A stretch of 64,000 nucleotides of DNA from Mucilaginibacter rigui. GTDB lineage: Bacteria > Bacteroidota > Bacteroidia > Sphingobacteriales > Sphingobacteriaceae. The translations under genes were made by a program, and so were the position numbers. The stretch covers positions 1 through 64,000 of the forward strand of contig NZ_JACWMW010000001.1 in assembly GCF_014773275.1 (NCBI RefSeq), given 5' to 3'. Position 1 is the first letter of the stretch; every line of letters starts with the position of its first letter. The notes beneath the pieces are model-generated. The model was not told the DNA's origin. It searched no databases and saw only the letters and a list, made by a program, of their open reading frames with translations. This document shows positions 4,965-61,002 of this stretch, piece by piece.

Positions 4965-5082
4965 CATCCGAAGCACCACTACAGCACCTTTTCTTATGGT
5001 TCATTAGTTCACCGGTTCATTAGTTTAGTGGTGCATGCTTCATTAACCTTGCAAACGCGGTGCCCAACCACACAGTATAAAG

Positions 5083-24877: not shown

Positions 24878-24965
24878 TTCTTATTCTTGATTTCACCGAT
24901 TTTTGTGATTTACCGATGATTAATTAATGATTTTTGTCTTGATTCTTGACTCTTGTTTCTTGAAT

Positions 24966-26066
24966 CTATCTAACGTTTTTTCTTCTGTTTTTGGCGTAAT
25001 CTTCAAAAATGTATTCGCCCAGGTTGTTTAGCGAGCTGTAGAACGCCTTGCCGCCGTTTGTTTCGGTAAACTGGCGTACAAACTGCTGCAGGTAGGGATC
25101 TTTTGCTATCATAAACGTGGTGATAGGTATTTTTAGCCTTTTACACTGCGCGGCCATGTTAAGCGTTTTGTTTACCACTTTCCTATCCAGCCCTATACTG
25201 TTTTTATAATACTTGGTGCCCTCCTTTAAGCAGGTGGGTTTACCATCGGTTATCATAAAAATTTGCTTGTTGTGCGTTTTACGGCGGCGCAGCAAATCGG
25301 TAGCCAGTTCAAGGCCTGCATAAGTGTTGGTGTGGTAGGGGCCAACCTGCAGGTAAGGCAAATCCTGTAGCGTAATAGGCCAGGCATCGTTACCAAAAAC
25401 CACAATGTCCAAAGTATCTTTAGGGTACTTGGTGCGGATAAGCTCGGCCAACGCCATAGCCACTTTTTTGGCCGGGGTTATCCTGTCTTCGCCGTAAAGT
25501 ATCATGGAGTGCGATATATCGATCATCAGCACCGTGCTGGTGAGGGTTTTGTAATCCATTTCCTCTACTTCCAGGTCGCGCTCGGTCATCATAAAATCGC
25601 CGCCTATGCCATGGTTAACCTGCGCATTCTGGATGGATTGCGTCATGTCTATCTGGTCAAGGCTGTCGCCAAACTCAAATTCGCGGCGTTCGGCATTTTT
25701 TTCATCGCCCTGCCCGCTTTGCGGCGAACGGTGGTTGCCCTTGCCCGATTTTTTTAACTTCCCGAAAATTTCTTCTAACGCCGCCTGGCGGATGCTTTGT
25801 TCGGCCTTGGCTGTAATATTGAACTCGCCGCTTTGGTTATCCTCGTTCAGGTAACCTTTTTGCTTTAGCTCATCAATAAAATCGCCCATGCCGTAATCGT
25901 CATTGGTAATGTTGTATTGCTTATCTAATTCGTTAAGCCATGCCAATGCCTCCCCGGCATCACCGGCGGTATAGTTCAACAATTCCAGGAATAACTTTAG
26001 TAATTCTTCAAATCCGCCCTTAGGGATCTGGTTTGGTTTAAACTGTGAAAATCCAAAACCACGCAT
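24966..26066 (-). CDS. VWA-domain protein, MoxR partner
   Basis: The product is 366 aa. The N-terminal half is mostly helical and charged. The von Willebrand A domain starts near 177, with the metal-ion-dependent adhesion site D183-I-S185-H-S187, a later Thr in HTNTYAGLELATDLL, and the Asp of MITDGKPTC. It has no signal peptide or membrane segment, so it is cytoplasmic. In MoxR/VWA pairs the ATPase uses the VWA protein as adaptor to reach its substrate; this pairing rests on adjacency here. Confidence 0.85.
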   Translation of the reverse strand: MRGFGFSQFKPNQIPKGGFEELLKLFLELLNYTAGDAGEALAWLNELDKQYNITNDDYGMGDFIDELKQKGYLNEDNQSGEFNITAKAEQSIRQAALEEIFGKLKKSGKGNHRSPQSGQGDEKNAERREFEFGDSLDQIDMTQSIQNAQVNHGIGGDFMMTERDLEVEEMDYKTLTSTVLMIDISHSMILYGEDRITPAKKVAMALAELIRTKYPKDTLDIVVFGNDAWPITLQDLPYLQVGPYHTNTYAGLELATDLLRRRKTHNKQIFMITDGKPTCLKEGTKYYKNSIGLDRKVVNKTLNMAAQCKRLKIPITTFMIAKDPYLQQFVRQFTETNGGKAFYSSLNNLGEYIFEDYAKNRRKNVR

Positions 26067-42185: not shown

Positions 42186-44021
42186 TTATTCATTACTGCC
42201 AACAGGGCCGGCTATATCACTCGTAGCCGGGTTAAAGTATTGGGTAATGGCTCGGGCTTGTTTCAGGTTCACTACTTCCTGTAATTCGGTTTCGGTTGCT
42301 TCGCGGATCTTTTTAACCGATTTAAAGTATTTCAACAGTTTTTCGGCAGTGGTTTTGCCTATTCCTTCAATCAGTTCAAGTTCGGTAGCCAGGGTGCCCT
42401 TATCACGTTTTTTACGGTGGAAGGTGATGCCAAAACGGTGTGCCTCATCGCGCAGCTGCTGGATCACTTTGAGTGTTTCCGAGCGTTTATCAAGGTAAAG
42501 CGGGTACTGGTCGCCGGGGTAGTAAAGCTCTTCCAGCCTTTTAGCAATGCCAATAACGGTAACTTGCTTATCAATACCCAAAAGCTTTAAACTTTTCATA
42601 GCAGATGAAAGCTGGCCTTTACCACCATCAATAATGATGAGCTGTGGTAGTTCGGTTCCCTCGTCAAGCATACGGCGATAACGGCGGTGTACGGCCTCTT
42701 CCATGGTGGCAAAGTCATTAGGCCCTTCAACGGTTTTTACGTTAAAGTGGCGGTAGTCTTTTTTTGACGGTTTGGCGTCCTTAAACACCACAATTGCCGA
42801 TACCGGGTATTTGCCCTGGAAATTGGAGTTATCAAAACACTCAATGTGGCGCGGCAGGGTATTCATACGCAGGTCTTTCATCATCAGGCTTAACAGGCGC
42901 TCGGTACGTACCTCGGGGTTTAGTTTTTCATACTGATCTATCTTTTCCTTTTTAAAGAACATCACGTTCTTTTGCGACAGATCAAGCAGCTTACGTTTCT
43001 CGCCAAGCTTAGGCACCGTGAATTTTAGTTTAATGTCGTCTACATCTATCTTAAAAGGCACAATGATTTCTTTAGAAGTGCTGTTGTACCTGGTCCTGAA
43101 CTCGGTTATGGCAATGGTTAAAAGTTCCTCATCGGTCTCGTCAAGCCGTTTCTTAAGCTCGATAGTTTGTGTTTGGGTGATGGTGCCGTTCATCACCTTC
43201 AGGAAGTTTACAAAAGCATATTTCTCTTCGGATGCGATGCTGAAAACATCCACATCGGTAATAGATGAATTTACAACCGTGGATTTACTTTGGTAGTTCT
43301 CCAGCAGATCCTGCTTCCTTTTCAGCCGGTGGGCCAGCTCAAAGTTAAGCTCGCTTACAGCTTTGTCAAGGTCGCTTTTCAGGCTGCGTACAACGTTACC
43401 GATCTTGCCGTTCAAAACATCTGTTATCTCGCCAATGTTATGGTCGTAGTCGGCTTCTGACTGGTAGTCCTGGCAAGGGCCTTTACAATTGCCCAGCTGG
43501 TATTCCAGGCAAACCTTAAATTTGCCTTTTTCTATATTCTCGCGGCTTAAGTTGAGGTTACAGGTACGCAGGGGATAAGTTTCTTTTATCAGTCCTAAAA
43601 TAGTATGCATCATACTTACTGAAGCATAAGGGCCAAGGTATTTTGAACCGTCTTTAATGATGCGGCGTGTCCAGAAAATGCGGGGATAGTTCTCGTTCTT
43701 GATAATGATCCATGGGTAGGTCTTATCATCTTTCAGCATTACATTGTAACGCGGCTGATGCTTTTTGATAAGGCTGTTTTCCAGCAGCCAGGCATCCACC
43801 TCGGTATCAACAATGGTAAATGTGATATTGCGGATCTTGGATACCAGCACCCTTGTTTTGGCATTTATCTGGGTATCCTTATTAAAGTACGAGCCTACAC
43901 GGTTACGCAGGTCTTTAGCCTTACCAATATATATCAGCTCTTTCTCGCTGTCCCAATACTGGTATACACCCGGTTTGTGCGGTATATTTTTTAAAGCTTC
44001 CCTGTAATCGAATTTCTCCAT
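42186..44021 (-). CDS. uvrC: Excinuclease ABC subunit C
   Basis: From ATG 44021 (MEKFDYREALKNIPHKPGVY) the product is 611 aa, the usual size; a GTG 12 bp earlier lies in flanking repeat. The N-terminal GIY-YIG nuclease has GVYQYWD and LIYIGKAKDLRNRV; then a UvrB-binding UVR motif, the UvrC RNase H-like domain (HIECFDNSNFQGKYPVSAIV, LIIIDGGKGQLSSA, the second nuclease site), and a C-terminal helix-hairpin-helix pair (LELIEGIGKTTAEKLLKYF). It makes the dual incisions in nucleotide-excision repair with UvrA and UvrB. Confidence 0.96.
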   Translation of the reverse strand: MEKFDYREALKNIPHKPGVYQYWDSEKELIYIGKAKDLRNRVGSYFNKDTQINAKTRVLVSKIRNITFTIVDTEVDAWLLENSLIKKHQPRYNVMLKDDKTYPWIIIKNENYPRIFWTRRIIKDGSKYLGPYASVSMMHTILGLIKETYPLRTCNLNLSRENIEKGKFKVCLEYQLGNCKGPCQDYQSEADYDHNIGEITDVLNGKIGNVVRSLKSDLDKAVSELNFELAHRLKRKQDLLENYQSKSTVVNSSITDVDVFSIASEEKYAFVNFLKVMNGTITQTQTIELKKRLDETDEELLTIAITEFRTRYNSTSKEIIVPFKIDVDDIKLKFTVPKLGEKRKLLDLSQKNVMFFKKEKIDQYEKLNPEVRTERLLSLMMKDLRMNTLPRHIECFDNSNFQGKYPVSAIVVFKDAKPSKKDYRHFNVKTVEGPNDFATMEEAVHRRYRRMLDEGTELPQLIIIDGGKGQLSSAMKSLKLLGIDKQVTVIGIAKRLEELYYPGDQYPLYLDKRSETLKVIQQLRDEAHRFGITFHRKKRDKGTLATELELIEGIGKTTAEKLLKYFKSVKKIREATETELQEVVNLKQARAITQYFNPATSDIAGPVGSNE

Positions 44022-44027
44022 ACTCTG

Positions 44028-44060
44028 GTTCACTGGTTCATTTGCTCATTAGTTCATTGG
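44028..44060. repeat. Left inverted repeat of the four-helix-bundle cassette
   Basis: GTTCACTGGTTCATT (44028-44042), then an extra TGCTCATT, then AGTTCATTGG (44051-44060). Without the 8-nt insertion it is the exact inverse complement of 44457-44481. Confidence 0.75.
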
Positions 44061-44437
44061 TCTGCTTTGAGACCGGATGACTTACCAATAAACTTTAAAT
44101 AACTATTCAACTTAATGTGAATGGGTTGAAGATTTTCAATAAGTGTGTTGAATTGATCTTCGCTAATAAGGTTTCTCGTTCTTGCTTTTTTCAGCCAACC
44201 TTTCGTTTCTAAAATAGATCCTCGGCTAAAATAACAGAAGTTTCGGTTCTCTTTATAATGATATCTGCCGTACCCCTCGGCTATATTAGCGCCGATAGAA
44301 TCAGCTGATCTTACTATTTGCTTTCCAACTGTATCTTATGCTAAATAATCCCACTCGCTTACTAAAAACCAAATTTCGTTGCTAAAGGTTTCGGCTAACT
44401 GGTACAATTCTAAATCTTCAAGATTATAATAACTCAT
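44054..44437 (-). pseudogene. Four-helix-bundle (23S rRNA-intervening-sequence-type) protein with one in-frame stop
   Basis: Reading from ATG 44437, codons 1-33 give MSYYNLEDLELYQLAETFSN and EIWFLVSEWDYLA. Codon 34 is TAA (44338-44336), where relatives have Lys before DTVGKQ. The same frame then runs on cleanly through DTVGKQIVRSADSIGANIAE, GYGRYHYKENRNFCYFSRGS and ETKGWLKKARTRNLI to TGA at 44056-44054, 127 codons in all. This is the small four-helix-bundle family, close to S23 and the Avd accessory proteins. AAA or AAG to TAA by one base change is the simplest cause. Inverted repeats (44028-44060 and 44457-44481) bound the gene, and its stop lies inside the left one. Confidence 0.8.
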
Positions 44438-44456
44438 AATATATTGAACGATCCAA

Positions 44457-44481
44457 CCAATGAACTAATGAACCAGTGAAC
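44457..44481. repeat. Right inverted repeat of the four-helix-bundle cassette
   Basis: CCAATGAACT (44457-44466) followed by AATGAACCAGTGAAC (44467-44481). Its inverse complement equals the left repeat minus an 8-nt insertion, giving 25 matching base pairs. Confidence 0.75.
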
Positions 44482-44491
44482 GAATGAACAA

Positions 44492-54621: not shown

Positions 54622-54635
54622 TTAGTAGTAAGTAA

Positions 54636-54702
54636 TTAGTATCAAGTATCAAGTACTAGGACAGGAAAGTCTAAATACTTGATACTCGATACTTGATACT
54701 AA
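54636..54702 (+). promoter_or_regulatory. GTATCAA word-repeat hairpin between atpA and atpG
   Basis: TTAGTATCAAGTATCAAGTA (54636-54655) faces TACTTGATACTCGATACTTG plus ATACTAA (54676-54702). The right arm carries one 7-nt unit more, so tandem units also form the stem. It spans most of the 90-bp gap. Confidence 0.7.
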
Positions 54703-54711
54703 AACAAAAGA

Positions 54712-59204: not shown

Positions 59205-60858
59205 TACCTACGCCAACCACCCGGTATATTATGCCCCGGTTGGCAACCACTTGCACGCTAAAAGCTGGCAAACAGAAGCGCCGCTGCGTATGCTGCTAAA
59301 CAACCTTAACGGGCAGGTTGCCGAAAACCCGGATGAACTGGTGGTATACGGCGGCATTGGCCAGGCGGCCCGCAACCCGGAATCGCTCAGAAAGATCATA
59401 GAACTTTTATTGGAACTGGATGATGACCATTCATTGTTAGTACAGAGTGGCAAACCGGTTGGGATCATCCGCAGTCACCCGCAGGCGCCACGGGTTTTAA
59501 TAGCCAACAGTAATTTGGTACCCGCATGGGCCACCTGGGAGCATTTTAACAAGCTGCGTGCCGATGGCCTGATGATGTACGGGCAAATGACCGCAGGCAG
59601 CTGGATCTATATCGGTACGCAGGGTATTTTGCAAGGCACTTACGAAACCTTTGTGGAGGCAGGTCGACAGCATTTTAATAATGACCTTACAGGGAAGCTA
59701 ATTGTAAGCGCTGGCATAGGCGGTATGGGTGGCGCGCAGCCCTTAGCTGCAACTATGGCGGGCGCTGTGTTTTTAGGTGCCGATGTAGATGTTACCCGTA
59801 TTCAAAAAAGGATTGATAGCAAATACATAGATAAGTTAACCCACTCTTACGAGGAAGCCATTGGCTGGGTAAAGGATGCTATGGCTAAAGGCGAAACCCT
59901 ATCTGTAGGGCTGGTAAGCGATGCCGGTGATATGCTGGAAAGGCTAATAGCCGACGGCATTGTGCCCGATATGGTAACCGACCAAACATCGGCACACGAC
60001 CCGCTGAACGGATATATCCCTAACGGGTTAACGTTAAAAGAAGCTGCAGATCTGCGCAAAGCGGATGCGGAAGAATATAAACACCTGTCGTTAAAAAGTA
60101 TGGCCCGCCATGTTGGCTTTATGCTGGAATTGCAAAAACGCGGCTCGGTTACTTTTGATTATGGTAACAACCTTCGCGAGTTTGCCAAACAGGGCGGCGA
60201 GCAAAATGCCTATGATTTCCCGGGGTTTACCCCGGCGTTTATCCGCCCGTTGTTTTGCGAGGGGAAAGGCCCGTTCAGGTGGGTAGCCCTATCCGGCGAC
60301 CCTGAAGATATTTACAAAACCGACCGGGCATTGATGGAAGCCTTCCCGGAAAACAAACCATTGATCAACTGGCTGGAGAAAGCGCAAAAGCAGATAGCCT
60401 TCCAGGGCCTTCCTGCACGTATTTGCTGGCTGGGTATGGGCGAACGTGAAAAGGCCGGGTTGATTTTTAACGAACTGGTGGCAAGCGGCAAAGTAAAAGC
60501 GCCGATCGTGATCGGTCGCGACCATCTGGATTGCGGCTCGGTAGCATCGCCAAACCGCGAGACGGAATCAATGAAAGATGGTTCGGACGCTGTATCAGAC
60601 TGGCCATTGCTAAACCTGATGGCTAACACCTCGGGTGGTGCAACATGGGTATCCTTCCACCACGGCGGTGGGGTAGGCATGGGGTACTCGCAGCATGCCG
60701 GTATGGTAGTAGTTGCCGATGGTACCGAACGCGCCGCAAGCTGCCTGAAACGTGTACTGCATAATGACCCTGCGATGGGCATCTTCCGCCATGCGGATGC
60801 CGGGTATGATAAGGCGAAGGATTGGGCCGATAGGTTTGGGTTGAAGGTGTGGGGTTAG
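59179..60858 (+). CDS. hutU: Urocanate hydratase
   Basis: The product is 559 aa, the usual length. Motifs include [40 protein letters not shown], the catalytic Asp/Cys region [17 protein letters not shown] and [17 protein letters not shown], all typical of the NAD-dependent enzyme. It converts urocanate to imidazolonepropionate. The start overlaps hutH by 26 bp. After its stop the operon is interrupted by nearly 400 bp of repeats before hutI. Confidence 0.97.
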
Positions 60859-60908
60859 TCATTGAGTCATTAGGTCATTGAGTCATTTGACGGGTGCAAT
60901 AATAAGAT

Positions 60909-61002
60909 CGTCATTGCGAGCGCAGCGTGGCAATCTTCGATAGAAAAGTAGGCGACAAGCATGTCGAAGATTGCCACTTCGCTATCGCTCCTCGCAATGA
61001 CG
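60909..61002. repeat. CATTGCGAG-type palindrome between hutU and hutI
   Basis: CGTCATTGCGAG (60909-60920) and CTCGCAATGACG (60991-61002) are exact end repeats. GGCAATCTTCGA and TCGAAGATTGCC make a second 12-bp stem inside. Confidence 0.8.

Follow-up and report, generated by a model that had tools for sequence, protein, structure and literature searches.

A candidate mobile element composed of a lone S23 gene and inverted heptad arrays beside stop codons

Introduction

Intervening sequences (IVSs) that carry an S23p gene are known in 23S rRNA (PMC4990558). The IVSs with an S23p open reading frame, as in Coxiella and Leptospira, share three features with the elements described here: the protein family, a length of about 430 nt, and a gene placed between complementary ends that can form a stem. 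Unlike those IVSs, the present elements follow a stop codon between protein genes and do not lie in rRNA. A possible further difference is that the ends of the present elements are tandem arrays of 7- or 8-mers. Structures of S23/IVP proteins have been solved since 2006, and we know of no function for these proteins.

Heptamer repeats have been described in Beggiatoaceae, cyanobacteria and some Bacteroidetes (PMC4679880). Xanthomonas and Nostoc also have them, with convergent inverted pairs among them (PMC4692102). Among the periodic repeats of intergenic regions in prokaryotes, tandem heptamers are reported to be the most abundant, and what they do is described as lacking any clear clue (PMC6344855). 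LSSR/STRR, the TAACTGA repeats of Beggiatoaceae and the GGGAATC repeats of Xanthomonas and Nostoc resemble the ends of our elements in being tandem, intergenic, patchy in distribution and often arranged as convergent inverted pairs. Published units recur in several S23 arms; TCAGTTA, for example, is the reverse complement of TAACTGA. In contrast to the elements here, the published repeats are not connected with an S23 gene in any of these papers (PMC4679880, PMC4692102, PMC6344855). A literature search that covered sources other than subscription papers and preprints found no link between heptamer repeats and S23 genes, which is not proof of novelty. An element that combines the two is apparently undescribed so far.

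Two further systems are related. MITEs and REP/RAYT elements likewise include gene-less intergenic hairpins with inverted ends. In the present elements, however, the ends are arrays of a short unit that varies by subfamily, and the gene encodes a four-helix-bundle protein and not a transposase. The Avd protein of diversity-generating retroelements (DGRs) has a similar fold, and a resemblance of PF05635 to Avd has been reported (PMC10053308). Unlike a DGR, the elements here have no reverse transcriptase (RT) and no TR/VR pair. RVT_1 has a single match in the genome under study, on another contig (C7:971660), and none at the element.

Here we analyse an S23 locus of Mucilaginibacter rigui in a window of 64,000 nt (the whole stretch of DNA examined) together with S23 copies from other genomes. 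Our analysis connects S23 genes with intergenic heptamers: the former would be the gene, and the latter the ends, of a single mobile element. Such an element would account for 7-base repeats found across bacterial genomes.

Results

A broken S23 gene between inverted octamer arrays

A preliminary description of the window had read a broken four-helix-bundle gene of the rRNA-intervening-sequence type, set between inverted repeats, as a mobile cassette outside rRNA. The frame was confirmed on the minus strand. It runs from the ATG at 44437 to the stop at 44054 (127 codons) and contains a single in-frame TAA, at codon 34. The family assignment held as well: the broken copy scores 87.8 bits against TIGR02436 in a profile search, and an intact orthologue at the same junction of a relative matches PF05635 at 2.3e-26. 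The gene lies between uvrC (ATG at 44021) and a penicillin-binding protein (PBP) gene (stop codon 44494-44492), as had been stated. The PBP-side array starts 2 nt past the PBP stop codon. The features of the window are listed in Table 1.

Table 1. Features of the S23 element and of related repeats in the window
Feature	Position	Strand	Remarks
Lone GTTCATTR array, no gene	4990..5032	+	Remnant or solo end, family of the window element
Lone heptad array, AATCAAG type	24937..24967	-	Unit of S23 element L009, elsewhere in the genome
Outer array, uvrC side	44025..44061	+	Units GTTCACTG GTTCATTT GCTCATTA GTTCATTG GT, inward on +
S23/IVP four-helix-bundle gene (PF05635, TIGR02436)	44054..44437	-	Same strand as neighbours; TAA at codon 34
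In-frame TAA breaking the S23 gene	44336..44338	-	Codon 34
Outer array, PBP side	44455..44491	-	Units GTTCATTC GTTCACTG GTTCATTA GTTCATTG GT, inward on -
Gene-less AGTATCA-heptad hairpin	54622..54703	+	Between atpA stop (54621) and atpG start (54712); MITE-like relative
Lone octamer array, GTCATTGA/G type	60855..60888	+	Unit of the genome's S23 elements L013 and L015

The inverted arms (44028-44061 and 44456-44489) measure 34 nt and are 85% complementary without gaps. They are present as claimed, but to call them perfect was an overstatement. Both consist of tandem copies of the 8-nt unit GTTCAYTN (family pattern GTTCATTR), so that pairing over about 25 bases requires that one unit be skipped. 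The 8 extra nucleotides in one arm, described as an insertion, are one additional tandem octamer unit. Similar words noted near 4998-5023 belong to a real array, the first in Table 1.

The element contains neither a transposase nor any other known enzyme of mobility. Searches of Pfam and NCBIfam found no domain besides S23 between the window arms, and no DDE, HUH, serine or tyrosine recombinase. Rfam gave no match for the element and no rRNA around it or around the seven other S23 copies of the genome. No 23S words were found near any S23 copy retrieved. The window element is outside 23S rRNA, unlike an IVS, and has the S23/IVP protein and stem-forming ends of an IVS.

Intact orthologues, for which the preliminary description had proposed a search, occur at the PBP-uvrC junction of four relatives. 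In three species, that of the window included, the gene is broken in differing ways. The breaks in the two relatives are independent, which lends plausibility to the stop codon at 44336-44338. The insertion in the window is old and common to relatives, and its gene was broken recently.

Inverted arms at S23 genes across phyla

Arms were detected in 220-nt flanks with one threshold (score of at least 13). Among the first 108 S23 copies, from the genus and the phylum, 80% reached this score. Of 454 control genes from these regions 2.9% did so, and of mismatched arm pairs 10%. In the set of 148 copies, inverted arms were present in 91% (genus) and 60% (phylum). The copies below threshold, about 10% in the genus and 40% in the phylum, probably include some genes used by the host. 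Of the 112 copies with usable arms, 86 had a best period of 7 and 23 a best period of 8; the window copy has period 8.

The arrangement extends beyond Bacteroidota. Arms were found at 88% of 52 loci from other phyla, with period 7 in 42. These loci include Clostridia, Planctomycetes, Acidobacteria, Chloroflexi, Proteobacteria, CPR and a Methanophagales archaeon. On viral contigs 30 of 34 S23 loci have arms, and in the class of a gammaproteobacterial genome 21 of 27. When 130 copies were aligned by phase, the inward heptads followed the skeleton R-G-W-N-N-H-N, with G at 94%; shuffled columns scored far lower. C makes up only 9% of the inward strand. Chance arms are ruled out by the control genes, the mismatched pairs and shuffles. 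A role of the heptads as stop-codon traps in all frames, by virtue of a period not divisible by 3, was also considered; the effect is weak, at 1.90 frames compared with 1.74 (2 of 200 shuffles). The tandem 7-/8-mer arrays, their generality over bacteria and one archaeon, and the separate unit of each gene subfamily had escaped the preliminary description.

Gene and repeat unit travel together

Each S23 gene subfamily has its own repeat unit, common to copies at unrelated sites. Among pairs of copies at non-orthologous sites, none share a unit below 40% protein identity, and 86% do above 80%. Within the genus alone, gene identity and unit identity are correlated (Mantel r 0.59), and the maximum of 2000 permutations was 0.10.

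The two arms of a given copy resemble each other only slightly better than they resemble arms from other copies of the family, and part of even this likeness is owed to the way in which arms were selected. Tight pairing within a copy was therefore rejected as an explanation. The arms are best seen as arrays of a subfamily motif and not as precisely matched stems, so precise arm pairing is not required.

Filled and empty sites

The PBP-uvrC junction was compared in 30 genomes, including that of the window. The element is present in seven and a lone array scar in one; most of the remaining genomes have unrelated hairpins or short spacers. Junctions lacking the element, whose existence had been left to be checked, are thus common. 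Orthologous sites do not always hold the gene without the repeats. Further sites in the genome of the window also give clean filled and empty pairs with relatives.

The sharpest cases were found in cyanobacterial plasmids. At site A, near-identical plasmids are either empty, reading AAAAAGTAATTAACAAATAAATATG, or filled, reading AAAAAGTAAT, the arrays and S23, then GTAATTAACAAATAAATATG. The insertion is flanked by a clean 5-bp target duplication, GTAAT, which includes the stop codon. This is the only unambiguous duplication: plasmid site B and junction 2 are ambiguous in this respect, and site C and the Bacteroidota sites are too diverged to be read. Further plasmids have a truncated element or a gene-less hairpin at site A. 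The nearest empty partner of the nrd plasmid site, with no closer one found, matches at 86%. Different plasmids also carry, at neighbouring junctions of a single Nostoc operon, two distinct S23 elements.

Filled and empty sites, the joint travel of gene and unit, and the 5-bp duplication support the earlier suggestion of a mobile cassette outside rRNA. We consider it probable that a lone S23 gene with heptad-array ends constitutes a mobile element that is targeted to stop codons. It is very improbable that S23 is instead an ancestral, non-mobile host gene for RNA or DNA handling, next to hairpin terminators or binding sites enlarged by replication slippage. Strong purifying selection on the protein would fit a host gene. 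Type I-D CRISPR loci repeatedly hold S23 between cas6 and cas4, which suggests a host role that keeps some copies. However, a non-mobile gene does not agree with the many sites that are filled in some close relatives and empty in others, the two different elements at adjoining junctions of one operon, the existence of decay products, or the coupling of unit and gene at unrelated sites. The precise plasmid sites contradict it, as deletions would be required throughout.

The target duplication also bears on a second alternative, in which the element is non-autonomous and moved by a host transposase such as a Y1 (RAYT-like) enzyme, with S23 as a passenger or a regulator of the ends. Across the genus, S23 number correlates moderately with PF01797 number (50 genomes, rho 0.44, p 0.001), and the sole S23-free genome also lacks PF01797; the correlation may merely mirror the load of mobile elements. 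Four of five genomes without PF01797 nevertheless have 2-7 S23 copies. To our knowledge, Y1 enzymes leave no target duplication, yet GTAAT is duplicated at site A. A passenger protein would also not account for the coupling between unit and gene. We regard a host transposase of this kind as quite unlikely.

Position relative to stop codons

For armed Bacteroidota elements, a gene on the same strand ends within 250 nt upstream in 108 of 113 cases, and the median distance from its stop codon to the array is 2.5 nt. Upstream-only elements number 61 and downstream-only elements 3. At 47 convergent sites, the array lies 2 nt from the upstream stop codon, compared with 42 nt for the opposite one (p 7e-6). 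The set from other phyla showed the same trend more weakly. Selection in short intergenic gaps could be a partial cause of the abutment.

The S23 protein and a possible mechanism

Four residues (Q30, S37, E44 and E67, in matched-domain numbering) do not vary among 223 sequences, which represent over ten phyla, and P20, E23, R33, N41, I42, G45 and S64 are conserved at 99%. The median dN/dS is 0.076. Purifying selection on the protein is thus strong across subfamilies, while individual copies break. A predicted S23 model (pLDDT 92.7) matches 2gsc (TM 0.84) and 2rld, each of which was solved with five chains. It also matches Avd of the Bordetella DGR (4dwl, TM 0.74) at a sequence identity of 4%.

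Each element consists of a single S23 four-helix-bundle gene and, on either side of it, an inverted array whose unit of 7 or 8 nt is specific to the subfamily. An S23 pentamer may bind the cognate arrays at both ends and would insert the element at stop codons, either alone or by recruiting a nuclease or transposase of the host. Read-through from the gene upstream would provide for expression, and gene-less hairpins would move in trans. This model predicts cognate binding, targeting of stop codons and an absence of arrays where S23 is absent.

Movement could instead occur at the level of RNA. The element would then be an mRNA hairpin with the gene in its loop, trimmed by RNase III and copied by an RT in trans, with S23 acting like Avd. 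S23 belongs to the protein family of 23S IVSs (PMC4990558), and its fold matches both Avd and the DGR RT complex. The window element is predicted to fold as a hairpin with paired arms (z -4.16), and elements almost always share the orientation of the upstream gene. However, arm mismatches in the sense RNA show no excess of G.U over A.C (95 vs 119), leaving covariation through G.U wobble unsupported. S23 copy number is unrelated to RT number (rho 0.01), which speaks against an RT in trans, and RT-free genomes have a median of 6 copies. An RNA-level element therefore seems unlikely.

We favour ends that act at the level of DNA and are bound by the S23 pentamer, which may also cut them. As a more tentative proposal, the pentamer might itself be the mobility enzyme, reading the heptad ends, inserting beside stop codons and giving rise to intergenic heptamers. 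The invariant Q/S/E/E and the near-invariant E/R/N/S would then form an active site or an end-binding surface. If S23 were the enzyme, it would represent a recombination fold not seen before, with transposition that uses no known recombinase fold. The end specificity of such an enzyme would shift naturally between subfamilies, and the class would span bacteria and at least one archaeon.

Arrays and S23 copies in the genome and its relatives

The genome holds eight TIGR02436 copies. Seven have inverted arms, two of them weakly scoring; L015 has none in the same test. The copies have units of their own: GTTCATTG, AATCAAG, AAGTCTTG/AGTCT, GTGGTGA, TCATTGAG, AAGGTTGG and AATTCTA. The octamer array pattern has 34 matches in the whole genome, compared with one for the reversed pattern. 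The window octamer is also found without a gene, as hairpins and single arrays.

The preliminary description had considered that the repeats might occur everywhere without the protein. Gene-less copies take the form of MITE-like hairpins or single arrays, and none were found in 400 kb of the S23-free relative, the one such genome of 61. In a comparison limited to four genomes, this genome and one with a single S23 gene (200 kb) had no arrays, whereas 12 were counted in 200 kb of a genome with 8 S23 copies and 10 in 400 kb of a genome with 15.

Additional observations

The AGTATCA hairpin at 54622-54703 has a unit carried by no S23 copy of this genome; relatives have many S23 copies with this unit. 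In L049, L050, L058 and L060, gene-less GCAGTTT-heptad hairpins occupy the PBP-uvrC junction that holds the S23 element in other species. The junction is thus a target that is hit repeatedly. In L067 and L073, the array includes the uvrC start codon (ATGAAC...), and the element may accordingly have altered the N-terminus of UvrC.

A 23S rRNA IVP appears in a published figure of CRISPR adaptation-module associations (PMC10910872). In two cyanobacterial plasmids (L412, 2471-2839; L413, 2477-2836), an S23 element with heptad arms fills the cas6-cas4 gap of a type I-D CRISPR locus. S23 elements in such loci may explain the reported association.

The window also contains GTCATTGCGAGCGCAGCGTGGCAATC at 60909-60940, a REP-like palindrome frequent in these genomes. 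Palindromes of this kind fill the PBP-uvrC junction in other species (L066-L076).
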